The notes under the pieces: model-generated
The model's database searches: none
What the model was told of the DNA's origin: nothing
Seen by the model: only the letters and a program-made list of their open reading frames with translations
Assembly (NCBI RefSeq): GCF_001506075.1
Contig: NZ_KQ947475.1
Coordinates: 723,799 to 787,798 of the forward strand
DNA length: 64,000 nucleotides
Source of the DNA: Vibrio sp. MEBiC08052
GTDB lineage: Bacteria; Pseudomonadota; Gammaproteobacteria; Enterobacterales; Vibrionaceae
Reading direction: 5' to 3'
Made by a program: the position numbers and the translations under genes
In this document: piece after piece, positions 8,814 to 24,935 of the stretch
Layout: each line of letters starts with the position of its first letter
How positions within the stretch are numbered: the stretch's first letter is position 1

Positions 8814-8860
8814 GGGCTCGCTAACTTTTAAAGGCATCTCTTACAAAAAGGTAATCAGGG

Positions 8861-10822
8861 ATGAAAATAGAGAAGATAAAGCTACAGAATTTTCGTTGTT
8901 TCGGGCATGAGGTGGTCGAGCTAAATTTCGAGGAAGAGCTGACAATACTTGTCGGCGGAAACGGCTCCGGAAAGACCGCGGTGCTGCAAGCTGTGTCCAG
9001 GTTGTTTGGTACATCATCATCGCAACGGTCGGTACAGCGTCGGGATTTTCACATACCTATTGACCGGCAGGAGCTGCAGTCTGGCGATAGTTTGTTTATC
9101 GAAGCGGTACTTGCCTTCCCTGAACTGGAAGAGCAAGACGCTTCTCCTCTTGATGCCGTTCCGGAGTTCTTTAATCAGATGGCGGCTTCCGGTGAGGGAG
9201 AGCCCCTTAAGGCCCGGATACGACTAAAAGCAACATGGACGGATGACGGTACGCCGGAAGGAGCAATTGAAGAGGATATACGCTGGATAAGAACCCTGGA
9301 TGATAATTTTGAATGGGATGACTGTTCCAGGGTTCAGGCTGTAGAGCGCTCTTCAATCCAGTTTATTTACTTACCGGCAAATCGTGATGCGACGACTCAG
9401 GTGACCGCCCTTCTAAAAGGGCGGTTATGGCAGGCTGCCAAGTGGTCGACAGCATTTAGGGATGCAAGCTCTGATAATGCCGGTCAGATCCAGAGCAGTT
9501 TTGAGGAGGAGGAGCCGTTAAGGGTCTTGCTGGGGCGTCTTTCAAGACGGTGGCAACAGGTCCATGAAGCCGATACAGACAGTCAGCCGCGTTTAAGGCT
9601 TATCGAAAACCGTTTTGAGGAGCTTGTTCGTAAAGCCGAATTTACCTTTACGCCTGATGAAGAAGGTCAGGAGCGCCGTTTGTCCGAGCTGAGTGACGGT
9701 CAGCGCTCTTTGTTCCATATTGCCCTTACAGCGGCAACGCTCGAAACCGAGCGGGAAGCTTTTTCTTTGCCTGCTGATGATAGCTCATTTGAACAGGATA
9801 AGTTACGCCGTATTCACCTGACGATTCTTGCCATCGAAGAACCAGAAAACAGTCTGTCACCATTCTTTTTGTCTCGCATCATCAAGCAGGCGAGAGAGAT
9901 CGGCGCACTGCCTTCCGCCCAGGTTCTGCTATCCAGCCATTCCCCGGCTATCCTGAGCCGGATAGAGCCGGAGGAAGTGAGATATTTTCGTATGGACCGG
10001 AGCACCCGGTGCTCATCAATCCGAGAACTGATCCTGCCTGAGGATGATGTTGAGGCCAGCGTGTATGTCAGACTGGCCGTAAAGGCATATCCCGAACTTT
10101 ATTTTGCGCGATTTGTAATCCTGGGTGAGGGAGACTCTGAGCGAGTCGTTATTCCGAAAATTGCGGAGGAAATGGGTGTTCCCCTTGATCCATCATTCGT
10201 TCCCGTCGTTCCGCTCGGTGGGCGATTCGTAGCGCATTTTTGGCGGCTGCTTAATAATCTTGAGATTCCACATGCCACATTGCTCGATCTTGATCTGGGG
10301 CGCAGGCATGGTGGGGCGAACGCCATGAGGAGTTGTCTTCAGAATCTAGCAGATATTGGGAACGATTGGGGGAACAGAAGTCGTGCGAATGCTGTTCAGC
10401 TTACCGACCAACAGCTTTATAACGAAGGTTCGCAAGGTCAATGGCTTCAAGCTTTCAATGAGCAGGGTGTTTTCTTTTCCGCTCCCATTGATCTCGACTT
10501 TGCCATGTTGCTCGCCTTTCCAACCGCTTATCAGGTTGCCAATCCAGGTGGTAATGGACCCCAGAGTAGTGCTGCTGCTATTCAAGCCAAAAAGGTCAGC
10601 ACGCTGAAAACAGGTGGTAATCCTGCCTTGTATACTGCTCATTTTGATGATGCATTCAAATGGTATCCCTATCTGTTCCTGAGTCGCAGTAAGCCCGAAA
10701 CTCACCTAGCGGCTTTTTCCCGCATCGCGGACGGCGGTGTTGCTGCATCCGCTCCAGCAGAGCTTAGGGCGCTCATTGAGTACGTTACGGATAAGCTCCA
10801 TCTGTCAGGAGAGAATGAATGA
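8861..10822 (+). CDS. OLD-family ATPase/TOPRIM nuclease, Gabija GajA-like
   Basis: 653 residues. N-terminal SMC/ABC-like ATPase: MKIEKIKLQNFRCFG, Walker A GGNGSGKT (32-39), signature LSDGQRSLFH, Walker B with IEEPENSLS near 325. A TOPRIM nuclease domain follows, with FVILGEGDSE (near 419) and the acidic LDLDLG (near 475). It overlaps the next gene, a UvrD-like helicase, by four bases (ATGA). A class 2 OLD nuclease next to a UvrD-type helicase is the Gabija anti-phage arrangement, in which the nuclease cuts DNA when nucleotides are depleted. It is longer than the founding GajA (about 578 residues, from memory), so I call it Gabija-like. Confidence 0.8.
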   Translation: MKIEKIKLQNFRCFGHEVVELNFEEELTILVGGNGSGKTAVLQAVSRLFGTSSSQRSVQRRDFHIPIDRQELQSGDSLFIEAVLAFPELEEQDASPLDAVPEFFNQMAASGEGEPLKARIRLKATWTDDGTPEGAIEEDIRWIRTLDDNFEWDDCSRVQAVERSSIQFIYLPANRDATTQVTALLKGRLWQAAKWSTAFRDASSDNAGQIQSSFEEEEPLRVLLGRLSRRWQQVHEADTDSQPRLRLIENRFEELVRKAEFTFTPDEEGQERRLSELSDGQRSLFHIALTAATLETEREAFSLPADDSSFEQDKLRRIHLTILAIEEPENSLSPFFLSRIIKQAREIGALPSAQVLLSSHSPAILSRIEPEEVRYFRMDRSTRCSSIRELILPEDDVEASVYVRLAVKAYPELYFARFVILGEGDSERVVIPKIAEEMGVPLDPSFVPVVPLGGRFVAHFWRLLNNLEIPHATLLDLDLGRRHGGANAMRSCLQNLADIGNDWGNRSRANAVQLTDQQLYNEGSQGQWLQAFNEQGVFFSAPIDLDFAMLLAFPTAYQVANPGGNGPQSSAAAIQAKKVSTLKTGGNPALYTAHFDDAFKWYPYLFLSRSKPETHLAAFSRIADGGVAASAPAELRALIEYVTDKLHLSGENE

Positions 10823-12684
10823 CCCGTGTAAGCAGAGACGAATGGGTACCTCTGGGTGTCGGTGGTCTGGAAGGCAGAGCGTGGGAGGCCTTACGTGAAA
10901 CCGATAGCAGCATCCTTGTGACCGCTGGTGCTGGTGCCGGAAAAACTGAGTTTCTGGCACAGAAGGCGACCTATCTTCTGCAGACAGGTATTTGTCCGGC
11001 ACCCAAACGTATTCTTGCCATCAGCTTTAAAAAAGATGCCGCCCGAAACATCGCCGAAAGGGTTGCAAAGCGTTGCCCGAGAGATCAGGCGCGGCGCTTT
11101 GATTCGATGACTTTTGATGCCTTTACCAAGGGGCTTCTGGACCGGTTTCGTCCGGCTTTACCTGAGCCGTTCAATGCGCCCGGTACGTATCAGATTGTTA
11201 ATCCGTTTCGCAGGGATTATGACGATTTTATTGAGCGACATGGCTATCACGAAGTGGGTGCTCAACAGCTTGAGAGAAGACTGCTTCTGACAGACCTGCC
11301 AATTGACTTGTCAAATGGATCTGAAGTACATCGTGCGTTAGCAGATTACTGGCATGAACAATTCTTCGGGGGCGACGAGATATCCCTGTCCTTCCCGATG
11401 ATAAACAGGCTTGTAAAACTGTTGCTTCAGGAAAATTCATATATCCGCCGGGCCTTACAGGCAACATATCCCATCGTCTTTCTTGATGAATATCAGGATA
11501 CCACCTATGCCCAGTACGACATGCTGCTAACGGCATTTGATGGCAGTGACGCTGTCTTTACGGCAGTCGGCGATGATAAGCAGCGCATCATGGGATGGGC
11601 GGGAGCCATGGATGACGCCTTCGACCAGTTTGAAAACGACTTTGGTGCGAGGCGCATCACATTGCTTTCAAACTGGCGGTCACATGCGGATCTGGTTCGT
11701 ATTCAGCACGAGATTGCCCGCCGGATAGACGGCAATGTGGAAGCGGTGCAGGCACAAGGGACCCGTGAAATTGAAGGTGAGGTTTCTGCTATCTGGCAAT
11801 TCCGGAACGCAGATGACGAGAACAATTATCTAGCAGAATGGGTGAGCCGTGAGGTTCAGTCAGGGCGTGTTGCGCCACATGATGTAGCAATTCTGATCAG
11901 AATGCGGGCAGATCAGGTGGAGGGTGAGATAGCCCCTGCTTTTGCGGCACGAGGTCTCAGGATCAGAAATGCGGCCCGGTCAGTCGGTGAAATTCAGATA
12001 CAGGATCTGCTTGGTGAAGAGCTGACCAGCATATTCGTTCCTTTGCTCCGCCTGGGAGCGACGGACCGAAGCCCAGAAAACTGGGAGCAGGCCCAGCAGA
12101 ACTATCTGTTTCTGGAGGCTGCCGATCCGGATAACGATCTCACGCAGGAACGGTTACTGGTTAAGCTTGAAGCATTCGTCCGTCAATTAAGAGCAGAGTT
12201 GGCGCGTCGCCAGCCTGATCCGGATGCAGCGGAAGAGATTGCAGAGATGCTTCTTGAATTTGTAGGGACCCCTAGGCTTCGGCAATCCTTTCCCGCTTAC
12301 CTGCGTGCAAGGGATTTTGAGAGGGTGTGGAGTGGATTTGTCACTCTCCTGAAAGAGTGTGCAGAACACAGCAGCAGCTGGACGGAAGCGCTGGATGAGT
12401 TCGAAGGTCTTGGCCAGGTAGCTCTGATGACCATCCATAAAAGCAAAGGTCTTGAGTTCCATACGATGATATTTTATGGGCTCGACAATCAGACTTGGTG
12501 GAGCCTTACGCCGCAACGGGGTGAAGAGCTAAACACTTTTTTTGTTGCCTTTACCAGAGCAAAGCAGCGTGCGTTTTTCTCCCAGTGCGTTGAGCGAGGG
12601 CATGCTATTGGCTGGATACAGCAATTATTGGCCCCGGCGGGAGTCGAAACCATAGATGGTACGACTATATTGGGTACTACGTGA
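10819..12684 (+). CDS. UvrD/Rep-type superfamily 1 helicase, Gabija GajB-like
   Basis: 621 residues. Motifs in order: Walker A AGAGAGKT (about 36-43), DEYQDTT (near 222), GDDKQRIMGW (near 249), NWRSH, TIHKSKGLEF (near 537) and FVAFTRAKQ (near 574), so all core SF1A helicase motifs are present. It is translationally coupled to the OLD nuclease gene (ATGA at 10819-10822), as in Gabija operons. It is longer than the founding GajB (about 494 residues, from memory). No third gene follows on this strand. Confidence 0.8.
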   Translation: MTRVSRDEWVPLGVGGLEGRAWEALRETDSSILVTAGAGAGKTEFLAQKATYLLQTGICPAPKRILAISFKKDAARNIAERVAKRCPRDQARRFDSMTFDAFTKGLLDRFRPALPEPFNAPGTYQIVNPFRRDYDDFIERHGYHEVGAQQLERRLLLTDLPIDLSNGSEVHRALADYWHEQFFGGDEISLSFPMINRLVKLLLQENSYIRRALQATYPIVFLDEYQDTTYAQYDMLLTAFDGSDAVFTAVGDDKQRIMGWAGAMDDAFDQFENDFGARRITLLSNWRSHADLVRIQHEIARRIDGNVEAVQAQGTREIEGEVSAIWQFRNADDENNYLAEWVSREVQSGRVAPHDVAILIRMRADQVEGEIAPAFAARGLRIRNAARSVGEIQIQDLLGEELTSIFVPLLRLGATDRSPENWEQAQQNYLFLEAADPDNDLTQERLLVKLEAFVRQLRAELARRQPDPDAAEEIAEMLLEFVGTPRLRQSFPAYLRARDFERVWSGFVTLLKECAEHSSSWTEALDEFEGLGQVALMTIHKSKGLEFHTMIFYGLDNQTWWSLTPQRGEELNTFFVAFTRAKQRAFFSQCVERGHAIGWIQQLLAPAGVETIDGTTILGTT

Positions 12685-12799
12685 GCATACTTAAGGTAAT
12701 GCTCTCCAAGTTCATCTAATAGAAGTTTCATGTCTCCTTGGGCCGTTGTTTTCTTCCAATTCGGAAAGAGAGTATCGGCTCAAGCCTGGGTTGGTATAT

Positions 12800-12812
12800 T
12801 TTAGCCGCTAAA
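12800..12812. promoter_or_regulatory. IncP KorB operator match, site 1
   Basis: TTTAGCCGCTAAA, an exact match to the 13-bp palindrome TTTAGCSGCTAAA bound by KorB, the partition protein and global repressor of IncP plasmids. It spans the stop codon of the minus-strand gene at 12808, in the convergent gap after the helicase gene. It may mark the boundary of the cargo insertion or act over a distance, since KorB can spread or loop along DNA. Confidence 0.75.
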
Positions 12813-13851
12813 ATTTCTGTTGGCTTTTTCCCGGCCTGTTAGCAGGAAGCAAAAAATCTTTGCGAACTGCTGCTAATGCTTTAGATACTGCTTGAGGTGT
12901 CATTGGTTGTTGTTTTCTGCTTAGTAGCTTTGTGCCTATTTGAGATTGAGTGTAGCCATAATGCTGAAGTACCAGCATTTTCTTCTTATTGTCTGAAAGT
13001 TTAGAGTCGACCATCTTTCGAGCCAGATTGCGAAGCTCCGCTACGTCTGCTGGCTGTAATGTTAAATTCAACATGAATAGGAAGAAATAGTCATCGATCA
13101 GTTTGTCTCCTGACATAGCATGAGGCTTAGCGCGATGTGCAGATTGATGAGCTAACCTAGAAAGTTCGATATTGAATTGTGCGAGGGAGCGCTTTGCCTG
13201 TTTGTAACTTGGATTCCACTCGTCATTGGCAAGTTTGGGGCGATGCTCTTTGCAGTAATTGTGGCTAAGTTCTAGTTTCTTGTGGTCTATAAGTTCAACC
13301 TCATTTGTTTGTCTCTGCTCTACTGTGAGCATGAATTTTGAGTACTCCGTAAGGTTCCCACAGAATTCGCAGAAACTATGTTTTCGTTGTACGTTTAGGT
13401 TGACGCCTTTGGTCGCTGTTGATTTCTTCGGACGCTTACAGGCGCAATCCCAGGTTAATTCAATTAACGATTCAATGGTTGCGACGAAGCACTGATCTCT
13501 TTGGGTTTGTTCATCACTTGTCTTTATGAACTGACGTAGCAGTTGGCGCTGCATGCGCACCATTGCTTCCAGCCCTATCAGCCGGATGATTTCGCTAAAT
13601 CCAACTCCTGAGCCAATACCCGCAACATGGTTTTTATAGCTGTTTGGGAGGGAATCCATGTACTCAGCTATGGCAGGATCGATCAGTTCTTGTATCAGGC
13701 GAAGAATGGGATAGCGCCGAGAGAAGGCAGAGTAAGGTCCCCAGCGCGTTCTAAATTTGGCGATAGCAAGAGAAACAGGCTGGGCGCAGCCTGGAAGGAT
13801 GGCTATGTAGTCTTGCCCTAGGTCTAGTCTAGCTTGGTGTTCGATATTCAT
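12808..13851 (-). CDS. Unknown island protein with cysteine/histidine cluster and HTH-like C terminus
   Basis: 347 residues; not recognised. A cluster CEFC (near 170) and, about 50 residues later, HNYCKEH suggests a zinc finger. Near the C terminus, YGYTQSQIGTKLL followed by MTPQAVSKALAAVRKDF looks like a helix-turn-helix, so DNA binding is plausible. ATG 13849-13851 is chosen; an in-frame TTG lies six codons upstream and neither has a clear ribosome binding site. The gene is divergent from alpA and shares its 86-base promoter region, so it may regulate or be co-regulated with alpA. A KorB operator overlaps its stop codon. Confidence 0.6.
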   Translation of the reverse strand: MNIEHQARLDLGQDYIAILPGCAQPVSLAIAKFRTRWGPYSAFSRRYPILRLIQELIDPAIAEYMDSLPNSYKNHVAGIGSGVGFSEIIRLIGLEAMVRMQRQLLRQFIKTSDEQTQRDQCFVATIESLIELTWDCACKRPKKSTATKGVNLNVQRKHSFCEFCGNLTEYSKFMLTVEQRQTNEVELIDHKKLELSHNYCKEHRPKLANDEWNPSYKQAKRSLAQFNIELSRLAHQSAHRAKPHAMSGDKLIDDYFFLFMLNLTLQPADVAELRNLARKMVDSKLSDNKKKMLVLQHYGYTQSQIGTKLLSRKQQPMTPQAVSKALAAVRKDFLLPANRPGKSQQKF

Positions 13852-13937
13852 AACAACTTTATAGTCCAAAAATAAAGCTTAATCAAGTTGCATTGCTTGG
13901 CACGATGAAGCCTCAACAGGTAAATGGAGGTTCAAGC

Positions 13938-14168
13938 ATGCAAACAATGGTAAATAAAGTTCTCATCAACAGGAAACAGCTCCTGGAGATGATTCCACTT
14001 TCAACGCGCACAATTTATAACCTGGAACAGCGTGGGGAGTTTCCGAAGCGCATAGCGCTTACAAGCAGAAATGTTGCTTGGGACTTATCGGAAGTCGAAG
14101 AATGGATAGAGACGCGTAAAGCGTCTGGAATCCAGGCTGCTCGACCTGGCAACACCATAGAGGCCTAA
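13938..14168 (+). CDS. alpA: AlpA-family excisionase/regulator
   Basis: 76 residues with a MerR-like winged helix: VLINRKQLLEMIPLSTRTIY, then the wing with GEFPKRIAL and the closing WDLSEVEEWIETRK. This is the AlpA/phage-type DNA-binding protein that usually activates integrase or directs excision. The frame opens at 13893, but ATG 13938 has TGGAGG seven bases upstream and gives the family length. Its stop lies four bases before repA, so it likely heads an alpA-repA-repC operon linking excision to replication. Confidence 0.88.
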   Translation: MQTMVNKVLINRKQLLEMIPLSTRTIYNLEQRGEFPKRIALTSRNVAWDLSEVEEWIETRKASGIQAARPGNTIEA

Positions 14169-14172
14169 TCGT

Positions 14173-15027
14173 ATGGCCCTTGATCTTATGGCGGCCTTTT
14201 CGGAAACGCCGCCGCCTCTTGATTATGTTTTACCTAACATGGTTGCCGGTACAGTGGGAGCTTTGGTTTCACCAGGTGGTGCCGGAAAATCCATGCTGGC
14301 CTTACAGCTTGCCTCGCAGATCGCTGGAGGCCCGGACTTGCTGGAAGTCGGAGAATTTCCTGTTGGGCCAGTTATCTATCTTCCCGCAGAGGATCCTCCT
14401 GCTGCTATCCATCACCGATTACATGCGCTTGGGGCACATCTCACTGCCGAGCAGCGGCAAGCTGTTGCTGAAGGTTTGCTGATTGAGCCGCTGATAGGAA
14501 GGTGCCCCAACATCATGTGTCTCGATTGGTTCGATGGCCTTAAGCGAGCGGCTGAAGGCCGTCGCCTGATGATCTTGGACACCTTACGCCGTTTCCACAT
14601 CGAAGATGAAAACGTTAGCGGTCCAATGGCACAAGTGATCGGACGTATGGAGGCCATCGCCGCCGATACGGGGTGCTCTATCGTATTTTTGCACCATGCC
14701 AGTAAGAGCGCCGCTATGATTGGTGCGGGTGACCAGCAACAGGCCAGCCGTGGGTCGTCTGTTCTGGTCGATAACATTCGCTGGCAATCGTACCTGTCTG
14801 GTATGACGCAAACCGAGGCTGTGGAATGGGGTGTTGATGATAGTCAGCGTGGGTACTTCGTTCGCTATGGCGTGAGCAAGGCGAATTATGGCTCTCCTTT
14901 CGCAGAGCGTTGGTTCCGGCGTCACGAGGGCGGTGTGCTGAAACCTGCCGTGCTGGAGAGGCAGCGCGTAGCCAGTGGCGTGCTGCCATTCAAGAAATCT
15001 AAGGTGAGATCACGTGATGAGCTTTGA
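14173..15027 (+). CDS. repA: RepA, IncQ (RSF1010)-type replicative helicase
   Basis: 284 residues, very close to RSF1010 RepA (about 279): PPPLDYVLPNMVAGTVGALV, Walker A SPGGAGKS (near residue 37), RRLMILDTLRRFHIE (Walker B) and SIVFLHHASKSAAM. RepA forms a hexameric 5'-3' helicase that opens the IncQ origin after RepC binding. It overlaps repC by 11 bases. An IncQ helicase inside a chromosomal island points to a circular replicating stage after excision. The DnaG-like RepB primase of IncQ plasmids is not found in the island. Confidence 0.95.
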   Translation: MALDLMAAFSETPPPLDYVLPNMVAGTVGALVSPGGAGKSMLALQLASQIAGGPDLLEVGEFPVGPVIYLPAEDPPAAIHHRLHALGAHLTAEQRQAVAEGLLIEPLIGRCPNIMCLDWFDGLKRAAEGRRLMILDTLRRFHIEDENVSGPMAQVIGRMEAIAADTGCSIVFLHHASKSAAMIGAGDQQQASRGSSVLVDNIRWQSYLSGMTQTEAVEWGVDDSQRGYFVRYGVSKANYGSPFAERWFRRHEGGVLKPAVLERQRVASGVLPFKKSKVRSRDEL

Positions 15028-15925
15028 TCTTACCCATGTTCGACATGATCCAGCTCACTGCCTGGCTCCTGGCTTGTTCCGTAGCCTGAAGCGTGGAGAG
15101 CGCAAGCGGCTCAAGCTGGACGTAACCTATACCCATGGCGAGGATTCGATACGTTTCTGGGGGCCCGAGCCTCTAGGTGTTGATGATCTTCGCATCTTAC
15201 AAGGGCTTGTGGCTATGGCCGCAATTTCTGGTGATAGGGGACGCGGGATTGTGCTGCGAAACGAAACAGAGTCAGAAGTTGGGCAGCAATTGCGTCTCTT
15301 GCTAGACCTGAAGTGGGACGCGGTTGAGAAGGATGCAATGGTTGCCAAGGGCAGCTTCCGACAATTGGCGCGAGAACTTGGGTATGCCGACGATGGAGGC
15401 AGCCAGTTCAAAACTATCCGCGATAGCATCGAGCGCCTATGGGCAGTATCGGTCATTGTGGAGCGTAAGGGGCAGCGTCAGGGATTCCGCATATTGTCCG
15501 ATTACGTCAGCGACGACCGGGAAGGTAAACTGTTTGTCAGCCTTAACCCTCGATTGGCAGAGGCTGTAATGGGAGAGCGTCCACATACTCGGCTCGACAT
15601 GACTGAGGTTCGGGCGCTACAGACCGATCCTGCTCGATTAATACATCAGCGATTATCGGGGTGGATTGATGTCGGTAAATCTGGACGGGTAGAACTGGAT
15701 ACTCTTTGCAACTACGTTTGGCCGGACGAAACGAAGAACCCCAACACCTTGAAAAAGCGCCGTCAGACGGCCCGGAAAGCGTTGACTGAACTTATTTCAG
15801 TGGGTTGGACTGTACATGAATACGCCAAGGGGAAATGGGAAATTAGGCGGCCAGGGGCCAACCTGGCCACCCCCCGGCGTGACAGCACCCATCCCCGGCA
15901 TAATAGTACCCGTGCCCCGGCATAA
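15017..15925 (+). CDS. repC: RepC, IncQ-type origin-binding initiator
   Basis: 302 residues, matching RSF1010 RepC (about 283) over HVRHDPAHCLAPGLF, GERKRLKLDVTY, DDLRILQGLVAMA, RLIHQRLSGWIDVGKSG and a C-terminal KRRQTARKAL segment. RepC binds iterons and recruits RepA. ATG 15017 follows AAGGTGAG by eight bases; an in-frame GTG at 15014 is possible. The last 18 or so residues (repeats of PRRDST, PRHNST) are encoded by the iteron-like repeats themselves, so the origin overlaps the 3' end of the gene. That tail is absent from RSF1010 RepC as I recall it. Confidence 0.93.
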   Translation: MSFDLTHVRHDPAHCLAPGLFRSLKRGERKRLKLDVTYTHGEDSIRFWGPEPLGVDDLRILQGLVAMAAISGDRGRGIVLRNETESEVGQQLRLLLDLKWDAVEKDAMVAKGSFRQLARELGYADDGGSQFKTIRDSIERLWAVSVIVERKGQRQGFRILSDYVSDDREGKLFVSLNPRLAEAVMGERPHTRLDMTEVRALQTDPARLIHQRLSGWIDVGKSGRVELDTLCNYVWPDETKNPNTLKKRRQTARKALTELISVGWTVHEYAKGKWEIRRPGANLATPRRDSTHPRHNSTRAPA

Positions 15926-15957
15926 CAGTATCCCATCCCCGGCATAACAGTACCCGC
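15872..15957 (+). repeat. Four 21-22 bp direct repeats, candidate oriV iterons for RepC
   Basis: Copies of CCCCGGCATAACAGTACCCGC start at 15872, 15893, 15915 and 15937, so they are phased by 21-22 bases (two helical turns). The first is the most diverged. IncQ origins carry similar-length tandem iterons bound by RepC. The first two copies lie inside repC, and the gene's stop codon is formed in the third copy. Confidence 0.75.
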
Positions 15958-16090
15958 TTCAATCGCGCAAACGCTTGCAGGGCAATGCTTTCCGGCCTGT
16001 TTTGGAAATCGATCCAAGATATTCCAAAGAATATCCATCATGCGCGGCATAGCCCGCGCCTGAATGGCGCGTTCATGCCTTGCCAACTCA

Positions 16091-16175
16091 ATCGGCCTCC
16101 GGCCGATGTTTTAACGCCAAGAGGGTGGCCGATTCTGCTTCCTCGCCAAGGGCTATCACCTCTTCTTGGCGTTAA
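16091..16175. other. Hairpin pair next to candidate iterons, possible single-strand initiation site
   Basis: ATCGGCC (16091-16097) pairs with GGCCGAT (16101-16107). Directly after it, TTTAACGCCAAGA (16110-16122) pairs perfectly with TCTTGGCGTTAAA (16163-16175) around a 40-base loop. IncQ origins have two hairpin ssi sites used for priming beside the iterons; position suggests that role, but sequence identity with known ssi sites was not established. Confidence 0.45.
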
Positions 16176-16361
16176 ATCCGTCCGAAGGACGACCAAAGCC
16201 GCCTTATAAGCTCCAGGAGCGTCGTTCAGAGGCCAACTAGGGGGTTAGTGGAGGGGGATGCCTAAAGCGCCTCTCTGGGCGGCTCAGGAAGCCGTATTCC
16301 ATACATCAAGATGAATAGCCACTTAAGCCGGTAGTAGGCTGAAAATGTGTGCGGTTTGTAG

Positions 16362-16418
16362 GTTGTAGTATGTAGTAGCACCATACAACATACTACAACA
16401 CTACATTTCCTATCCACA
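16362..16418. other. 12-bp inverted repeat and DnaA-box-like sequence
   Basis: GTTGTAGTATGT (16362-16373) is the exact reverse complement of ACATACTACAAC (16388-16399). CTATCCACA (16410-16418), one base from a DnaA box, follows. The 15926-17082 stretch otherwise holds no convincing gene, so these are likely parts of a regulatory or origin region. Confidence 0.45.
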
Positions 16419-16628
16419 CTGACGTTGTGCTCAAAAATCTGTCCGAAATTGGGCGCTAGCGGCTCGACACGCACAGAGTGTTGGTAGCGATCCTTCCTGA
16501 CCTGATGACCCAACCGATACCAATCTGAAACCGTCAAAGAAAAGGCCAACGAGAGTGTCTAGTGGGTTTGAAAATCCATGTGATACAGCGATTTACATTC
16601 GATGTGTTGCTAGCACTCGTACGTTTCA

Positions 16629-16644
16629 TTGACACTTGAGGGGC
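16629..16644 (+). repeat. Single IncP (RK2) TrfA iteron
   Basis: TTGACACTTGAGGGGC is identical to iterons of the RK2 vegetative origin, the sites bound by the initiator TrfA. Only one copy was found on either strand of the island. It lies about 200 bases before the IncP-type oriT. A single site would not normally form an origin, but could recruit TrfA or titrate it. Confidence 0.75.
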
Positions 16645-16850
16645 GCTATCCCTCCTGAATTGGTAAAGCTGTGTATTTCTGTGTTTGTTTGCTGTGTAAA
16701 CCCCCGCGTTAGCGTAGTAATTGCCTGATATTACGTGTTTATTTCGTGCTTCTGTTCTAGCAAGAAGGGGAACAAGCGATTTTATATGGTTTGCACTAAA
16801 AAACAGATTTTCGCTGCAACACTTTCCTTGGCGTAAACAACGCTGAAAAG

Positions 16851-16975
16851 CGGGCAAGATAGGTGAAGTAGGCCCACCGACAAGTCGGCGGTTCCTATTT
16901 CACTCCCCTTTATTCGCACCGGAGGTGCTCAACGGGAATCTTGCTCTTCGAGGCTACCGGCTGCCGCCGTAGGAG
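16851..16975. other. oriT: oriT of the IncP/RP4 type
   Basis: The block starting CGGGCAAGATAGGTGAAGT matches the RP4 origin of transfer, including GTAGGCCCACC, a TraJ-site inverted repeat CCGAC-AA-GTCGG (16877-16888), TTATTCGCACC, GGTGCTCAACGGGAATC and GGCTACCGGCTGCCGCCG. On the minus strand the nick region reads CACCTATCTTG/CCCG (RP4: CACCTATCCTG/CCCG), so the nick would fall between 16855 and 16854 and the repC/repA side would enter the recipient first. In RP4 traJ follows oriT directly; here trbJKL and two small genes intervene. No relaxase gene is present. Confidence 0.92.
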
Positions 16976-17082
16976 TTATTGGCTTAAATTTCTTCATGTC
17001 AACTTTTATGTCCAATTATTGAGCTTATACGTTATGCATTGAAAGGCACGATAAAGCATTCATTGGTAATGGAGATCAACGT

Positions 17083-17859
17083 ATGCAAAAAGTTAGAAGA
17101 AAAAATTTAGCCGCTAAAATTGCTCTGGCCGTCGTTATGACGACCTGCACTTTGCAGCCCGTCTACGCCGGTATTCCAGTAGTTGATGGCACCAATCTGA
17201 CGCAAAACATCATGTCTGCTTTGGAAGCGGTCGCGCAGACGGCCAAGCAGATTCAGGAATACCAAACCCAACTCCAGCAGTACGAAAACCAACTGCAAAA
17301 CACGATGGCCCCGGCGGCCCATATTTGGGACCAGGCGCAGCGCACCATCAACGATCTGAACCAGGCGACCAACACGCTCGCCTATTACCAGAACCAGCTT
17401 GGCAGCCTCGATGCCTACCTGGGCAAGTTCCAGGACGTGGCCTATTACCGCAGCTCGCCTTGTTTCTCGGCGGCGGGATGCAGTGATGCCGAACGAGCCG
17501 CGATGGCCGAGAACCGTCGCCTGGCGTCTGAATCGCAGAAGAAGGCCAACGACGCGCTGTTTAAGGGCCTGGAGCAGCAGCAAGTCAATCTTGAAGCCGA
17601 CGCCCGACAGCTTAACCGCCTGCAATCTGCCGCCCAGGGCGCAGACGGCCAACTGGCCGCCATTGGCTACGCCAATCAGCTCGCCAGCAACCAGGCTAAC
17701 CAGCTCCTGCAAATCCGTAGCCTGCTGATTGCTCAGCAGAATGCCGTTGGCACTCGAATGCAGGCGGATGCTGACCGCGAAGCTCAATATCAAGCGTCCC
17801 GTGAAAGGTTGTTCGATATGGGAGAGCCAACCGACCGTTCAGAAAACAGGGGGTTCTAA
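17083..17859 (+). CDS. trbJ: TrbJ, IncP-type mating-pair protein
   Basis: 258 residues with an N-terminal signal peptide (AAKIALAVVMTTCTLQPVYA) and a long glutamine-rich coiled coil (AKQIQEYQTQLQQYENQLQN), as in TrbJ/VirB5-like periplasmic proteins of P-type conjugation systems. ATG 17083 has GGAG about eight bases upstream. It is the first gene after oriT and is followed after two bases by the TrbK-like gene. Its C terminus, DMGEPTDRSENRGF, recurs almost unchanged in that neighbour. A KorB operator lies within its first codons. Confidence 0.88.
   Translation: MQKVRRKNLAAKIALAVVMTTCTLQPVYAGIPVVDGTNLTQNIMSALEAVAQTAKQIQEYQTQLQQYENQLQNTMAPAAHIWDQAQRTINDLNQATNTLAYYQNQLGSLDAYLGKFQDVAYYRSSPCFSAAGCSDAERAAMAENRRLASESQKKANDALFKGLEQQQVNLEADARQLNRLQSAAQGADGQLAAIGYANQLASNQANQLLQIRSLLIAQQNAVGTRMQADADREAQYQASRERLFDMGEPTDRSENRGF
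17106..17118. promoter_or_regulatory. IncP KorB operator match, site 2 (inside trbJ)
   Basis: TTTAGCCGCTAAA, exact operator consensus, encoding the residues LAAK of the TrbJ signal peptide, 24 bases after its start codon. It is well placed for KorB bound here to silence the trb operon of the island. Confidence 0.75.
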
Positions 17860-17861
17860 TC

Positions 17862-18059
17862 ATGAAGAATATCACCCGAGTTTTTATCGTTAGCGCGTTG
17901 GCCTCTTTCGTTCTGGTGGGGTGCGGTGAAGATGACGGGCCTAAGCCTGCAACGATCAACTGTGACAACCCAAACCTGACGAAAGAGCAGAGGGAAGAAG
18001 GGAACTGTCTTTGGGATATGGGCGAACCCACTGATCGCTCCAAGAACAAGGGGTTCTAA
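17862..18059 (+). CDS. TrbK-like entry-exclusion lipoprotein
   Basis: 65 residues with a lipoprotein signal, FVLVGCGED (lipid-modified Cys near residue 21), and a short Cys-containing mature part (INCDNPNL, EEGNC). In IncP plasmids the gene between trbJ and trbL is trbK, which blocks entry of related plasmids, so position and type agree; sequence identity to RP4 TrbK is not clear to me. The last 14 residues, DMGEPTDRSKNKGF, nearly duplicate the TrbJ C terminus. Start ATG 17862 follows the TrbJ stop by two bases. Confidence 0.7.
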   Translation: MKNITRVFIVSALASFVLVGCGEDDGPKPATINCDNPNLTKEQREEGNCLWDMGEPTDRSKNKGF

Positions 18060-18061
18060 CC

Positions 18062-19357
18062 ATGAGCAAGATATTCATTCGACTTGTGATGCTCCTGGCA
18101 GTTTTACTGACTTCGCAAACTGCGTCAGCGGCCATTGAGCCTAATGGTGTCTTGGATGAAGTGGCCGTGCGTTTCATGACGGCCAGTGCTACTTGGGGCA
18201 CGGTAATTACAAACTATGCCGCCTGGCTGTTCTGGACGCTGGGCACTATATCCCTTGTTTGGACTGGCGGGACCTTAATCCTTAAACAAGCGGATATAAG
18301 GGAGTTCTTTGCCGAGTTCGTGCGCTTCATCCTGACGTTTGGTTTCTTTCTCTGGTTGCTCAGAAACGGCCCAGACTTTGCGACGTCAATCATCGACTCG
18401 TTGAGAATGATCGGTGCTCAAGCCGGTGGCCTTCCGAGAGATCTAACCCCGTCAGAGCCTATTAGTATTGCGTTCGACATTATTGTGAAAGCTGGTGAGT
18501 CCTACAGCATCACAAGCCCGATAGATAACTTGTCTATCTTCTTAATCACGCTGGCAATTTTGGCCTGTATGGCGGTAGTGGCGGCCAATGTGTTGTTGGC
18601 CTTAGTGACGGCTTGGATATTGATCTATGCCGGTGTCTTCGTGCTGGGGTTTGGTGGTTCGCGTTGGACTTCAGATATAGCAATCAACTACTTCAAAAGC
18701 GTATTGGGCGTTGCTTTGAAGTTGATGACAATGACGTTGCTCATTGGCATTGCCATGTCGATCATGGACGGTTTCTATGCCGATCTATCCAATGATGCCC
18801 CTATGCGTGAACTGCTGGTGATCTTTGTCGTTTCACTGGTTCTTGTGATGCTCATTCACTCGGTTCCCAATGTGGTCGCCAGCCTGGTTCCTGGAGGCGG
18901 CGCGGCGGCAGGTGCTGGCAGTATCAGTGCCGGAGCGATGGCCGGAGCGGCTGTTGCCACTGGCGGTATGGCTGCCGGTGCAGCAATGGCTACCGCCGGC
19001 GGTGCGTCTGCTATTCAGGCTGCATTTGCAAAAGCAGGTGAGAACGTAGCGAACAATACTGACGTTATGTCGAGCCTGGGCGGAGCATTTAGCGGTGGCG
19101 GCGACTCTGATGAAGCTGGCTCATTTTCCCAAGCGTCCGGCCAATCTTCTAGCGGTGGCGAATCCTCTGGCGGCGGCTTTAAAGGCAGCGCTGTAAAAGC
19201 TGGTCGTATTGCAGCGGATACCGGTGCAAATTTGATGAAGGGTATGGGTGATATGGCCGGGGATCGGATTGGCCGAACTGCTGGAGGTCGTCTAGCCAGC
19301 TCGATCCGAAACAGTACGAAAGATAACGGGGATGACGACGACAAGGAGGGCGACTGA
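18062..19357 (+). CDS. trbL: TrbL, inner-membrane mating-pair channel protein
   Basis: 431 residues. Signal-like N terminus (LMLLAVLLTSQTASA is similar), then several membrane spans (AAWLFWTLGTISLVW, FILTFGFFLWLL, LAILACMAVVAANVLLALVTAWILIYAGVFVLGFGG), typical of the TrbL/VirB6 family of P-type T4SS. The C-terminal part is low-complexity Gly/Ala/Ser. RP4 TrbL is longer (about 528, from memory). The stop UGA (19355-19357) is followed by C and preceded by AGGAGG (19344-19349); the +1 frame continues with a tail-like sequence that would bring the length to about 515, so a frameshift or split is possible. Confidence 0.88.
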   Translation: MSKIFIRLVMLLAVLLTSQTASAAIEPNGVLDEVAVRFMTASATWGTVITNYAAWLFWTLGTISLVWTGGTLILKQADIREFFAEFVRFILTFGFFLWLLRNGPDFATSIIDSLRMIGAQAGGLPRDLTPSEPISIAFDIIVKAGESYSITSPIDNLSIFLITLAILACMAVVAANVLLALVTAWILIYAGVFVLGFGGSRWTSDIAINYFKSVLGVALKLMTMTLLIGIAMSIMDGFYADLSNDAPMRELLVIFVVSLVLVMLIHSVPNVVASLVPGGGAAAGAGSISAGAMAGAAVATGGMAAGAAMATAGGASAIQAAFAKAGENVANNTDVMSSLGGAFSGGGDSDEAGSFSQASGQSSSGGESSGGGFKGSAVKAGRIAADTGANLMKGMGDMAGDRIGRTAGGRLASSIRNSTKDNGDDDDKEGD

Positions 19358-19610
19358 CGACGCTTCCCCTGCATTTGACAACGATAGCTTAGGCGGTGGC
19401 GGCACTGGCTGGATGAATCAAACCGGCGGTTTTGATGGCCTATCCAGTGAGGACCAGGAAGAAGCCCGCCAAGCACACGCAGAATGGCAAGAGCGCGACC
19501 CGGAAAAGCACACCTTCGACGTTGAGGATTACGTTTCGTATGCCCAGGAACGTCAGCAGGAACGAAATAGTGAGATTGCCAGCTTTGTTAAAAAAGGCCG
19601 CATGGCCTAA
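19332..19610 (+). CDS. Overlapping reading frame, possible TrbL C-terminal tail
   Basis: Up to 92 residues in the +1 frame relative to trbL, overlapping it by 26 bases. Hydrophilic; GGGGTGWMNQTGGF, then acidic/glutamine-rich helix (EEARQAHAEWQERDP, VEDYVSYAQERQQE). ATG 19332 has no properly spaced ribosome binding site: GGGG abuts it. Skipping the T of the trbL stop context (GAC-T-GAC) would fuse the two as ...EGD-DDASPAF. So this may be the distal part of TrbL, either by programmed +1 shift or after a mutation, or a coupled small gene. Not recognised by itself. Confidence 0.5.
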   Translation: MTTTRRATDDASPAFDNDSLGGGGTGWMNQTGGFDGLSSEDQEEARQAHAEWQERDPEKHTFDVEDYVSYAQERQQERNSEIASFVKKGRMA

Positions 19611-19630
19611 CTAGATAAGGATTACTGATT

Positions 19631-19885
19631 ATGGAGTTTAACTTTCCACCCCAAAACCTTGCGGAGGTATTTGGTTTCTTCGCAGTGATGTTCATTGTGA
19701 TGCTGGCCTTCTATTTTTTGGGGCAGTGGCTGCACAACACCGGACACGGCTCGAAGATGAAAGCCATTGCCGACAAAATGGAGGTATTCCAAAACAGGTT
19801 GGCCGGGCGTGCTTACAAGGACATGACGAGATCGGTCGATCAAATCGACAAAATGAGACGCTGGCCGTTTGGCCGACGCAAGTAG
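19631..19885 (+). CDS. Small single-span membrane protein of the island
   Basis: 84 residues, not recognised. One membrane helix (VFGFFAVMFIVMLAFYFLGQWL) followed by a basic cytoplasmic tail ending in WPFGRRK. It sits 20 bases after the preceding frame in the trb operon, so it may belong to the conjugation set. AAGGATTACTGATT precedes ATG 19631. A hairpin follows directly. Confidence 0.65.
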   Translation: MEFNFPPQNLAEVFGFFAVMFIVMLAFYFLGQWLHNTGHGSKMKAIADKMEVFQNRLAGRAYKDMTRSVDQIDKMRRWPFGRRK

Positions 19886-19886
19886 T

Positions 19887-19928
19887 TAGAAAGCACACGG
19901 GCCGGTGATGGTGCACCGGCCCGCATTT
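19887..19928 (+). terminator. Hairpin at end of trb operon, repeated at 27204
   Basis: GGGCCGGTG (19899-19907) pairs with CACCGGCCC (19914-19922) around a six-base loop, followed by GCATTT. The T run is short, so termination may be partial. The 42-base block 19887-19928 recurs with three differences at 27204-27245, beyond the right end of the island. Confidence 0.6.
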
Positions 19929-19957
19929 CCACATACCACCTGACAGAGAGGTGACAC

Positions 19958-20185
19958 ATGACAACCACACATAATATCGAAGTTCAGAACGTAATTCATC
20001 AGGCCGCGACCAAGTTGGCTGCCTTGGAGTTCATCGACCAGGAAACCGCCCGGCAGATTTCGCCCGTTGCGGAAGCCGTCGCCAATATGTTCACGATCCT
20101 GTACTACCAGGCTGAAACTGGTCGAGCGACGCCGGAGGACTTCCAGGAGGGGTTGGACACTATCCGCCAGGTAACAAGGAGGTAA
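19958..20185 (+). CDS. Hypothetical small island protein
   Basis: 75 residues, helical, not recognised (VIHQAATKLAALEFIDQETA, VAEAVANMFTILYYQAE). AGAGAGGTG lies upstream of ATG 19958. It ends 11 bases before traJ, so it is probably in the same transcript and may be a relaxosome accessory or a regulator. Confidence 0.6.
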   Translation: MTTTHNIEVQNVIHQAATKLAALEFIDQETARQISPVAEAVANMFTILYYQAETGRATPEDFQEGLDTIRQVTRR

Positions 20186-20196
20186 GGCAAAAGGTG

Positions 20197-20571
20197 ATGA
20201 ACGATAAGGCAAAACGAATAACGAGGAAGAGCAGTACGCCTATCAAGGTGTACTGCTTACCCGAGGAAAAGGAGCATATCGAGGCGCAAGCAAAGCGAGC
20301 AGGCATGAGCGCTGCGCGTTATCTGCGTGAGGTTGGCCAGGGCTACAAGATCAAGGGTGTGGTCGATTGTGAGCAGGTACGGGAGTTGGCTCGAATCAAC
20401 GGCGATCTTGGCCGTTTGGGTGGCCTATTGAAGCTATGGCTGACCGATGACGTGCGAACTGCCCAGTTCGGCCAGTCAACAATCCTTGCTGTTCTCAGTA
20501 AGATCGAGGCGACGCAGGAGGAAATCGGTAAGGTCATGACCAAGGTTGTTATGCCGAGGTCTGAATCATGA
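20197..20571 (+). CDS. traJ: TraJ, IncP-type relaxosome accessory protein binding oriT
   Basis: 124 residues, like RP4 TraJ (about 123). Shared blocks include PIKVYCLPEE, VGQGYKIKGVVD and ARINGDLGRLGGLLKLWLTDD. The N-terminal ribbon-helix-helix region binds the inverted repeat in oriT and recruits the TraI relaxase. Its binding site is the oriT at 16851. A strong AAGGAGGT lies 13 bases before ATG 20197, with GTG 20194 also in frame. Having TraJ but no TraI fits recruitment of the relaxase of a co-resident IncP plasmid. Confidence 0.92.
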   Translation: MNDKAKRITRKSSTPIKVYCLPEEKEHIEAQAKRAGMSAARYLREVGQGYKIKGVVDCEQVRELARINGDLGRLGGLLKLWLTDDVRTAQFGQSTILAVLSKIEATQEEIGKVMTKVVMPRSES

Positions 20572-20594
20572 CAATATCGTACGCTAGGGATATG

Positions 20595-20614
20595 GGGCGA
20601 CCAATTGGTCGCCC
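20595..20614 (+). terminator. Perfect palindrome after traJ
   Basis: GGGCGACCAATTGGTCGCCC is a 20-base perfect palindrome, followed by TATTATTTTAG. It is likely a terminator for traJ, and could also be an operator. A KorB site begins six bases later. Confidence 0.6.
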
Positions 20615-20620
20615 TATTAT

Positions 20621-20633
20621 TTTAGCGGCTAAA
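20621..20633. promoter_or_regulatory. IncP KorB operator match, site 3
   Basis: TTTAGCGGCTAAA, exact operator consensus with the alternative central base. It lies about 125 bases upstream of the resolvase gene and about 90 upstream of a possible -10 (TAATAT, near 20721), a distance over which KorB is known to act in IncP plasmids. Confidence 0.75.
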
Positions 20634-20757
20634 TTTTTCTTCACGGTGTTCACTAAACGGTAGTTTTCTGGACAGAGAGAGCCGCCGCATTTTTTCATTT
20701 TTCTGGCTATTCTTCTCTGTTAATATACCCGTTAAGTTTTCAATGTTGAGAATGTCC

Positions 20758-21324
20758 ATGAATCAACGCATTGGATACGCCCGTGTTTCGACGGACGACC
20801 AGCACCTAGACCTGCAGCGTGATGCGCTCACGCAGGCAGGGTGCAGTGTGATCTACGAAGAAGCGGTCAGCGGCAAGAATGCAGCTCGCCCAGAGCTTAA
20901 TCAGTGTCGCAAGGCGCTTCGGGAAGGGGATACTCTCGTAGTGTGGCGACTGGATCGGCTCGGACGTAGCCTACCTGACTTGGTAACGATTGTTGCAGAC
21001 TTAGAGCAGCGTGGTGTGCATTTTGAGAGCCTGACCGAGCAGATAGAGACTGGTAGTGCTGCGGGCAAGCTGCAGTTTCACGTTTTTGCGGCGCTTGCGG
21101 AGTTCGAGCGTAGCTTGATCCGGGAGCGGACCCAGGCCGGGCTGGCAGCAGCTCGTGCTCGTGGGCGACTCGGGGGGCGCAAGCCAAAGTTAGACGACCG
21201 GCAAGTGCGAGAAATCAAGGCGTTGTTACGCGATCCAGATATTCAGGTGGCTGAGGTTGCCCGCCGTTATGGCGTGTCGCGAACTACCCTGTACAAGTAC
21301 GTCGGTGTCGTCACGCCGCGTTAA
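20758..21324 (+). CDS. Serine recombinase, resolvase type (ResG-like)
   Basis: 188 residues. Catalytic domain starts RIGYARVSTDDQ, with the nucleophilic serine in ARVS, then VVWRLDRLGRSLPDLV, FAALAEFERSLIRERT and a C-terminal HTH (AEVARRYGVSRTTLYKYV). This is the small Tn3-resolvase/invertase family. In GIsul2-type islands a resolvase sits here and probably resolves multimers of the replicating circle. ATG 20758 gives the family start MNQRIGYARVS; an in-frame ATG at 20743 is possible. The 170 bases upstream may contain its res sites. Confidence 0.88.
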   Translation: MNQRIGYARVSTDDQHLDLQRDALTQAGCSVIYEEAVSGKNAARPELNQCRKALREGDTLVVWRLDRLGRSLPDLVTIVADLEQRGVHFESLTEQIETGSAAGKLQFHVFAALAEFERSLIRERTQAGLAAARARGRLGGRKPKLDDRQVREIKALLRDPDIQVAEVARRYGVSRTTLYKYVGVVTPR

Positions 21325-21336
21325 TGAGGAATTTTA

Positions 21337-23085
21337 ATGCTCCAACAATCATTAGAGGTTGGCTCTACCAAAAAGATACAACAGTCTGTTCAGGAGTCTG
21401 AGCCTAGTTGTCCTGTTATGGCCGCGAGTGAAGCAATGGCGATAGGAGGGGGACATGAAGCCCGTGGAGCGATTTTTACGCGCCCAGAAGTGGTTGATTT
21501 CATTTTGGATCTATCTGGATACACGGAAGATCAACCCCTCCATAAAAAGCGGCTTTTAGAACCATCCTTCGGCGGAGGAGATTTTCTGCTGCCGATCATA
21601 GATCGACTCTTATGCACATGGCGGGCAGCCAGGCCGAACGGTTCTGCATTCGATGAGCTGGCTGATGCGATTCGAGCGGTGGAGTTGCATCACGAAACCT
21701 TTCGTAGCACTTATACCGCCGTTGTCGCGTTGCTCAATCGCCACGGGATCGCTGAGGATGCTTCGACTGCTTTGGCTGACTGCTGGCTGTCACAGGGTGA
21801 TTTCCTGCTGGCACCACTCGAAGGGCAGTTTGATTTCGTGGTAGGCAACCCGCCCTATGTCCGTCAGGAGTTGATCCCGGCACCGCTGCTTGCCGAATAC
21901 CGCAGTCGTTATCTGACAATGTTCGACCGGGCCGATATTTATATTCCCTTTATCGAACGGTCGTTATCGGTATTGTCAGATGGTGGCAACTTGGGCTTCA
22001 TCTGCGCGGATCGCTGGATGAAGAACCGCTATGGTGGGCCGTTGCGCAGCCTTGTAGCTGAGGGTTTCCATCTAAAACTTTATGTCGACATGGTGGACAC
22101 ACCGGCTTTCCACTCTGCTGTGATCGCCTATCCTGCCATCACTATTATCAGCCGTGAAACTCCGGGAGCAACGCGCATCGCTCACCGTCCGGACATTGAC
22201 CGGGCGACGCTCAGCACGTTGGCTGGTTTGCTTACAGCCCCTACATTGCCGAAAGGACCCAGCCAAGTACGCGAACTTGCTCGCGTGACTAACGGCGCGG
22301 AGCCGTGGCTGCTGGAGTCATCCGACCAGATGGCGCTTATTCGCCGCCTGGAGAGTGTTTTTCCTCTGCTAGAAGATGTGGGATGTAAGGTTGGGATCGG
22401 TGTTGCGACTGGTGCTGATAAGGCGTTCATAGGGGAGTTCGAGACGCTTGATGTAGAGCTAGACCGTAAGCTACCGCTGGTGACAACAAAGGACATCATG
22501 AGTGGTGAAGTGCACTGGCGTGGGCAAGGTGTAGTCAATCCCTTTGCCGAGTCCGCCGGACTGGTTGATCTCGACGAATACCCGCGTTTACGGCGCTATC
22601 TTGAGGCTAGACGAGAGGTAATTGCAGGGCGGCACTGTGCGAAAAAAGCACCTGCTAGGTGGTATCGTACGATTGACCGCATTAATCCGGCACTAGCCAC
22701 AAGGCCGAAGCTACTGATTCCAGACATCAAGGGGGAGGCTCATATTGTTTATGAAGGCGGTGAGTTATATCCACATCACAACCTCTATTACGTTACGTCC
22801 GATGACTGGGATTTGAGAGCCTTGCAGGCAGTGCTGCTGTCCGCCGTCACACGTCTATTCGTGGCGACCTATTCAACGAAAATGCGGGGAGGATTCTTGC
22901 GCTTCCAAGCGCAGTACCTGCGCCGGATTCGTATCCCAAGGTGGGAGGATGTGTCTGAACCGATGCGTCGTGAGCTGGCCGAAGCAGCCATCAAGAGAGA
23001 CGTACAAGCATGTAATTTGGCAGTATTCAAGCTTTACGGCTTGAGCCGCGAAGAACGATCATCCCTCGGGGGTAATGGAGAATAA
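21337..23085 (+). CDS. N6-adenine DNA methyltransferase, PaeR7I/XhoI-type system
   Basis: 582 residues. SAM-binding motif [15 protein letters not shown] (near 76), catalytic motif IV NPPY (near 171), then a target recognition region ([25 protein letters not shown]). This layout is that of gamma-class adenine methyltransferases of the Eco57I/PaeR7I type. The partner gene starts at the base after its stop. It should protect the PaeR7I/XhoI site (CTCGAG), an inference from the partner. GAGGA precedes ATG 21337. Confidence 0.85.
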
Positions 23086-23829: not shown

Positions 23830-23832
23830 TGA

Positions 23833-24654: not shown

Positions 24655-24670
24655 CTCTAAAGGTGCTTTT

Positions 24671-24853
24671 ATGGCCGATATCTCAAAAAAATCCGCCTCT
24701 CTAGACGATGACAGCCCGAGTGATACTGAGGCTAATGTGCGTCGGTTGACCCCTGAGGAGCTAGTAGAGTTACGGCGAGACATGGCAGAATCGTCAGCTT
24801 GGGCCAAAGCTGAACTAAAGCGTCGACGAGCAGAAAGAATCAAAAAAATCTGA
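24671..24853 (+). CDS. Small charged protein at right end of island
   Basis: 60 residues, very hydrophilic, with helix-forming VRRLTPEELVELRRDMAESSAW and a basic end (LKRRRAERIKKI). Not recognised. It starts 16 bases after the HEPN-like gene. Size, charge and position would fit an antitoxin, but nothing in the sequence shows this. The frame is open upstream to 24635; ATG 24671 avoids overlap. Confidence 0.45.
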   Translation: MADISKKSASLDDDSPSDTEANVRRLTPEELVELRRDMAESSAWAKAELKRRRAERIKKI

Positions 24854-24935
24854 ACATGGCATAGATAATGGTATTGATAGCAAGTGATTTTATAAATATC
24901 TGTTACTTAAGGGTATTTTCTTCTTGTTGATGTTA

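Follow-up and report, generated by a model that had tools for sequence, protein, structure and literature searches.

Why should a chromosomal island carry perfect binding sites for a plasmid protein that the cell itself appears not to encode? The question is raised by an island of about 17.6 kb (~7306-24945) beside guaA in Vibrio sp. MEBiC08052, lying in a stretch of 64,000 nucleotides (assembly GCF_001506075.1, contig NZ_KQ947475.1, positions 723,799 to 787,798) that was analyzed as a whole and is called "the window" here. The protein is KorB of the IncP plasmids, a ParB-family cytidine triphosphate (CTP) clamp that is described as loading at its operator and then sliding (PMC11790492), and the sites are copies of that operator, TTTAGCSGCTAAA, found exactly at 12800, 17106 and 20621 in a scan of the window. 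The remaining window matches, among those listed, have two mismatches each; the whole 4,762,049-base assembly contains three exact copies, all of them the window sites, and has no match to the reversed (read-backwards) pattern. These scans confirm the initial annotation of this DNA, which had noted three exact copies and none elsewhere in the window, and its figure of about 0.002 chance matches per 64 kb agrees with simple arithmetic. It had also held that KorB is absent from the island; the KorB family (PF08535) indeed has no match in this genome in a profile search (0/1), and no KorB homologue is present in the fetched stretches of the 74 island loci described below (0/74). As a background, 28 of 185 gammaproteobacterial genomes have any copy of the operator, the window's own genome included.

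Setting and conservation of the operators

The three sites, and a hairpin that adjoins the last of them, are placed as follows ("core gene" denotes an uncharacterised gene of the island core for a 353-amino acid (AA) protein).

12800-12812, no strand: KorB operator 1, TTTAGCCGCTAAA, centre C; between the convergent cargo and core gene, overlapping the stop codon of the latter
17106-17118, no strand: KorB operator 2, centre C; codons 9-12 of trbJ, TTA GCC GCT AAA, encoding LAAK
20592-20617, + strand: terminator-like hairpin, directly before operator 3
20621-20633, no strand: KorB operator 3, TTTAGCGGCTAAA, centre G; start of the right-hand cargo, downstream of traJ

The positions given initially hold, but the context had to be corrected to the stop-codon overlap, the trbJ reading frame and the place behind the traJ hairpin that are listed here. 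Operator 2 is about 140 bp 3' of the region that aligns with an IncP-type origin of transfer (oriT). A promoter scan of 12600-21000 gave four consensus matches against 7.2 expected in shuffled sequences. None of them overlaps any operator: the closest stand 129 bp from site 1, on its left, and about 90 bp from site 3, on its right.

For comparison we assembled 91 loci: 80 from TrbJ searches in GTDB genomes (the best 80 of 220 stretches encoding a relative), the window, three E. coli islands (taken from 71 of 5426 genomes with a match to some part), two plasmid stretches (L007 and L008) and five further stretches. The presence of trbB, trbE, trbG or trbI divides them into 17 plasmid-like and 74 island-like loci, and the latter form 43 clusters at 95% trbJ nucleotide identity. 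For 48 of the 74, the fetched stretch shows guaA or the integrase. The remaining 26 count as islands solely because their stretches lack the other trb genes, so that some could be plasmid fragments. All 48 loci that show guaA or an integrase have an exact operator, and at least two copies are present in 31 of them; overall, 73/74 island-like loci have one, the exception being L048, whose stretch begins at trbJ. By clusters the count is 42 of 43, and the contig of the remaining cluster starts at trbJ. The initial annotation had proposed conservation in related guaA islands as a check, and exact operators are indeed kept across them.

In island core totalling 447 kb (43 clusters) there are 89 copies of the pattern TTTAGC-S-GCTAAA, compared with a single occurrence in total for 119 permuted half-site palindromes, and none in 63 kb of guaA-side chromosome. 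Copies with zero, one and two mismatches number 89, 4 and 7 for the operator, against means of 0, 0.2 and 6.5 for 40 permuted palindromes. Permuted palindromes and genome scans together rule out a chance origin of the sites, in agreement with the initial annotation. Pairwise trbJ identity across clusters is 61-94% with a median of only 71%, and the near-absence of mismatched operators against this background points to purifying selection. In addition, the codons of the LAAK motif, TTA-GCS-GCT-AAA, are invariant apart from the central base in all 37 clusters that have LAAK, although TTA makes up only 3.9% of the other leucine codons in trbJ; these 37 codon rows were picked for an in-frame operator, but an unselected list returns the same 37 as all of the clusters with LAAK. 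Together with the mismatch spectrum, the invariant codons indicate that the DNA word itself is maintained. The six clusters without LAAK are L029, L033, L034, L048, L072 and L080. L048 is cut by its contig end; in L033, L034, L072 and L080 the operator is at most about 150 bp upstream of trbJ, and in L029 it follows traJ, about 2 kb upstream. As judged from these sequence comparisons, the operators are under selection across a mobile island family and are not decaying relics.

Origin of the three site classes

The second site has an evident plasmid counterpart. An operator at the start of trbJ is common to RP1 (RP4/RK2), pB3, an untyped E. coli plasmid, a Nitrincola plasmid and pMHAD031. The island operators share an identical 13-bp core with those described for RK2/RP4 (PMC11790492, PMC7314908), and the trbJ-internal site of the window has the same offset, 23 nt, as that of RP1; they differ in that the window's are on an element without KorB and have no adjacent KorA operator. 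Of the 17 plasmid-like loci, 12 carry an exact trbJ operator and L070 carries one with a single mismatch; L067, L071, L075 and L076 lack it. A further operator directly follows traJ in RP1 and pMHAD031. One might then suppose that the operators simply arrived with IncP trb and tra genes through past integration and have no function now. Chromosomal traces of IncP-1 plasmids, including an oriT in P. aeruginosa and S. flexneri and KorB chromatin immunoprecipitation (ChIP) at an operator of KT2440, were in fact reported by Chiu and Thomas in 2004 and are cited as signs of past plasmid integration in PMC7314908 and PMC11952213. We regard such a functionless inheritance as highly improbable, since it is disfavoured by the mismatch spectrum and the codon invariance given above: there are hardly any decayed copies (89 exact, 4 with one mismatch), and the synonymous codons of trbJ do not vary at the operator.

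The class of site 1 is a further difficulty for it. Such an operator lies 3' of the core gene in 15 of the 20 clusters with this gene, or upstream of repA (5 clusters), and no homologue of the gene was found in the 17 plasmid-like loci (partial stretches) or in the complete pMHAD031. Operators of this class are exact even beside copies of the gene with internal stops (L010, L015-L017) or with only 29-40% identity (L019, L023, L025, L026, L101); they are missing in L009, L020, L030 and L035, among others. To judge by these comparisons, then, the class is seen in islands only and is not inherited from plasmid genes.

Operator 3 looks like an independent gain, because it is behind the hairpin and is missing in all 8 of the 8 aligned relatives with a related traJ. 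We considered that it might be the homologue of the IncP traJ/traI operator and dropped the idea: it is 53 bp past the traJ match, behind the hairpin, as against 0-20 bp in the plasmid and other-island copies, and the same 8 relatives do not have it.

Chromosomal operators and "remnants" have thus been on record since 2004, and what is new here is that operators are conserved and selected across a family of integrated mobilizable elements (IMEs), including a class not derived from plasmid genes. What was read in 2004 as past plasmid integration would here be parts of a selected mobile island family. S. flexneri has the element GIsul2 at guaA (PMC9376610), so at least one "IncP remnant" may be a guaA island. 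We found no description of functional KorB operators in such islands in the open-access literature, among the matches listed.

Possible roles of the operators

The initial annotation had offered silencing of the island by the helper plasmid, sensing of its arrival and alignment with its partition machinery as functions without ranking them; we favour partition or maintenance, with silencing as the rival reading. Specifically, we put at about one half the probability that the sites are loading points for helper KorB and give the excised island IncP partition and maintenance. The KorB clamp of an incoming IncP helper would load at the island operators, and the island would excise and replicate in the presence of the helper. 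The bound KorB would recruit its ParA partner, the protein IncC, so stabilising or partitioning the excised island. Titration or competition by the island sites would disturb the helper, and some damping of trbJ and rep transcription by the clamps on the island is also probable. The first of these steps, KorB binding to the island operators, is very likely on the predicted sites. The KorB proteins of pMHAD031 and the Nitrincola plasmid share 70-71% identity with that of RP1 and retain T211 and R240, which we take to be operator-contacting residues. RP4 KorB was reported, from ChIP, to be bound at an operator in the chromosome of P. putida KT2440 (PMC7314908).

Our preference rests on the plasmid-like density of the operators, their position mostly inside or behind genes, the unrelated rep families of the islands, and the precedent of the element SGI1. 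Island cores have 1-4 operators each, about 1 per 5.0 kb, and RP1 has 10 in 60.1 kb and pMHAD031 10 in 42.9 kb. By placement, 37 of 90 operators are in trbJ, 15 after traJ, 15 on the 3' side of the core gene, 7 upstream of repA, 3 after repC and 13 elsewhere, so that the majority are inside or behind genes. RepA/RepC homologues are present in 26 of the 43 clusters, and among the 17 that lack them a replication domain was found in 6 (RepA_C in 3, RPA in 2, phage-type initiators in 1). Five operator-bearing stretches from other Gammaproteobacteria were also opened, and both of those with four operators include korB. SGI1 is likewise an integrated mobilizable element with its own replication, some type IV secretion system (T4SS) subunits and sites for a ParB-family protein of its helper: two parS sites of IncC plasmids bind ParB, stabilise an SGI1 replicon and help to expel the helper, as described in PMC10954446. 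The window island has the corresponding predicted parts, namely exact helper sites, no KorB found, and a replication module of its own (RepA/RepC with 22-bp repeats). Both element and helper are nevertheless unrelated in the two cases (IncC/ParB versus IncP/KorB), one of the sites in the present family is inside the trbJ frame and common to the helper, and binding and stabilisation are demonstrated for SGI1 only, the window island being known by sequence.

A possible, though tentative, extension is that the guaA islands, unrelated to SGI1, have become passengers of a helper centromere by convergence: with any rep module, an island would after excision be carried by IncP partition and would displace the IncP plasmid. 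If this were true, the capture of a helper's partition protein would be a recurring strategy of mobilizable islands and not an oddity of SGI1, directed here against IncP, the classic broad-host-range plasmids; chromosomal "IncP remnants" would be recast as active parasites, the conservation of a KorB site within trbJ of plasmid and island alike would be explained, and the islands would be predicted to affect the stability of IncP plasmids.

Three observations on replication and partition genes may be added. In L019, L042 and L060 the replication module is swapped (RepA_C, RPA, phage O/P-like) and the trb/operator backbone retained. L049 has a ParA-like gene followed by a ribbon-helix-helix-like open reading frame (ORF) between two KorB operators (14326-15347), and L021 has a similar ParA-like pair (10767-11698) about 5 kb from its nearest operator.

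The main rival to partition is repression, in which helper KorB, joined in some islands by KorA, represses the excision/replication and TrbJKL operons and so couples island output to the helper's circuit, with no selection for partition. Acting alone, KorB gives 4-5-fold repression when its operator is 4 bp or 1.5 kb upstream (PMC11790492), distances that can be set beside those in the islands: in 5 of the 12 clusters that have repA but not the core gene an operator is 435-593 bp upstream of repA, and where the core gene is present the interval from site 1 to repA is 1.36 kb in the window. Operator 2 is also just downstream of the oriT/traJ-leader region. The same source terms KorB alone a weak repressor, however, and the repressing operators described there are upstream of promoters, whereas the trbJ site is in mid-operon in IncP plasmids and within the gene in the islands. 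RP4 entry is reported to have caused no common change in KT2440 chromosomal expression (PMC7314908).

Evidence on the partner KorA falls on both sides. The RP4-form KorA operator, GTTTAGCTAAAC, has no match within 2 mismatches in the window, and there is no close word of the pMHAD031 form beside its operators, so the RK2-type KorA/KorB silencer layout is not found there. Across the islands, when up to 2 mismatches and a distance of up to 110 bp are allowed, a word of the RP4 form stands beside 3/90 operators and one of the pMHAD031 form beside 1/90. The argument from missing KorA operators is weakened, however, because pMHAD031 appears to use GTATAGCTATAC, its presumed KorA operator, and not the RP4 form. 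A few islands do carry such words: exact GTATAGCTATAC is present in L060 and L103, a KorA-like word, GTTTAGCTTAAC, in L045/L050, L073 and L027, and in all 6/74 loci (5/43 clusters) have a KorA-type word 64-336 bp from an operator. The corresponding control with the KorC operator was empty in islands and plasmids alike and is therefore uninformative. On the whole we think repression without selected partition unlikely, though a serious contender. In L045 (3964-4050), L103 (6592-6681) and L060 (4865-5212) a KorB operator and then a KorA-type word stand upstream of replication or mobilization genes, much as in the silenced promoters of RK2.

A different role would be in transfer, if KorB loaded near oriT helped or timed processing of the island relaxosome, with neither partition nor repression involved. 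The distance from the oriT core word to the nearest operator is 172 bp in the window, and it is 165-552 bp for 16 of the 19 clusters that gave the word; partition-related proteins of the IncP-9 plasmid NAH7 raise conjugation, ParR doing so via oriT binding (PMC12421886). But a distance of 3.7-4.0 kb separates operators 1 and 3 from oriT, no more than 19 of the 43 clusters gave the core word, and the function described for IncP KorB is repression of the trb operon; we consider a role in transfer improbable.

Several facts weigh against borrowed partition, the reading that we prefer. RK2 partition needed the operator OB3, and other operators without OB3 formed destabilising complexes, to go by the title of Williams 1998, which means that an operator need not be a centromere. 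Only one operator is present in the L081-L088 cluster, and the 5/43 clusters with a KorA-type operator near a KorB operator have the layout of a repressor. The KorA-operator control is weak for helpers of the pMHAD031 type, whose KorA operator seems unlike that of RP4. Among the 17 clusters without RepA/RepC, of which 11 were tested, 4 have no replication domain (1-3 ORFs tested in each) and 1 has only KfrA_N. Finally, in the other three of the five operator-bearing stretches from other Gammaproteobacteria, L140 (two operators) and L141 and L142 (one each), none of the reference genes was found.

The island and its parts

The window element is a GIsul2-type guaA IME by its predicted genes and is predicted to be mobilizable. 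It shares with GIsul2 and the guaA "IncP island" IMEs (PMC5704250, PMC9376610) the guaA 3' site, the attachment (att) core GAGTGGGA reported for GIsul2 (PMC9376610), a tyrosine integrase, AlpA, RepA/RepC and TrbJ/K/L. In the window we find the insertion at the guaA 3' end with att repeats, the integrase, AlpA, RepA and RepC, strong matches for TrbJ and TrbL and a weak one for TrbK, and no match to a relaxase or the remaining T4SS (TraI, TraG, TrbB, TrbE, TrbG and TrbI have none in the window). A review proposes that such islands use TrbJKL of their own to reshape the mating pore of IncP (PMC5704250). Beyond the GIsul2 pattern, the window island has TraJ, Gabija, an XhoI-type restriction-modification system and the three operators; KorB occurs nowhere in PMC5704250 or PMC9376610. 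Its features are listed below.

5740-7317: guaA
7306-7315, + strand: attL, GAGTGGGAAT, at the guaA 3' end (direct reading and pattern search)
7626-8813, + strand: tyrosine integrase (Pfam Phage_integrase 3.4e-24, Arm-DNA-bind_3 4.6e-21)
8861-10822, + strand: GajA of Gabija, cargo (PADLOC GajA 2e-239)
10819-12684, + strand: GajB of Gabija, cargo (PADLOC GajB 5.6e-213)
12808-13869, - strand: uncharacterised island core protein, 353 AA, with conserved CxxC and CxxH
13938-14168, + strand: AlpA-family regulator (Pfam Phage_AlpA 5.2e-14)
14173-15027, + strand: RepA-type helicase, AAA_25 (Pfam 5.4e-29; relatives annotated as helicase RepA family)
15014-15925, + strand: RepC replication protein (Pfam RepC 6.9e-128)
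15888-15956, + strand: three 22-bp direct repeats, iteron-like (repeat family D4, spacing 22)
16797-16969, + strand: IncP-type oriT (aligned to the oriT region of the IncP plasmid pMHAD031)
17083-17859, + strand: trbJ, VirB5-like (NCBIfam TrbJ equivalog 7.3e-118)
17862-18059, + strand: TrbK-like small protein, entry exclusion candidate (NCBIfam TrbK_RP4 2.6e-4, 20.9 bits, below the cut-off of 23; no Pfam match)
18062-19357, + strand: trbL, VirB6-like (Pfam TrbL 9.6e-39; NCBIfam TrbL_P 3.7e-76)
19891-19964, - strand: PtaRNA1 antisense antitoxin RNA (Rfam RF01811, 77.3 bits)
20194-20571, + strand: TraJ relaxosome protein (NCBIfam TraJ equivalog 9.7e-60)
20743-21324, + strand: serine resolvase, cargo (Pfam Resolvase 1.7e-47)
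21337-23829, + strand: XhoI-type restriction-modification, cargo (methylase 21337-23085, Eco57I 2.7e-22; endonuclease 23086-23829, XhoI 6.1e-104)
23833-24654, + strand: Abi_C-domain protein, cargo (Pfam 3.5e-13)
24936-24945, + strand: attR, GAGTGGGAAT

The near-identical loci L081-L088 are taken here to be GIsul2 or a close relative. The AlpA-family regulator is the probable excisionase, by analogy with the AlpA of GIsul2 (PMC9376610), and the 22-bp repeats are a likely origin of replication (oriV). A traJ-II motif (Rfam traJ-II, 92.2 bits) is within the oriT at 16852-16955, and the window TrbJ is 83-85% identical to those of two IncP plasmids. The 353-AA core protein has no Pfam, PADLOC, NCBIfam or PHROGs match, and its AlphaFold2 model (mean predicted local distance difference test, pLDDT, 78; predicted template modelling score, pTM, 0.50) has no PDB match at E<=0.001. 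Homologues of its gene are present in 20 of the 43 clusters, with identities down to 36% in the alignment, and in several islands the gene has internal stops.

The inner bounds of the two cargo stretches, 8861-12799 and 20634-24935, are operators 1 and 3. The left slot is occupied by Gabija here and by other genes in L005, and it is nearly empty in several islands, where the operator is 16-101 bp past int. Many of the islands have PtaRNA1 and a small toxin-like ORF (19891-20182 in the window) either in the trbL-traJ interval or after trbL. Just beyond attR, at 25134-25415 and 27204-27246, are fragments resembling the integrase gene (84%, 85% and 78%) and a 93% copy of 19887-19929, which are probably remnants of a second, tandem guaA island.

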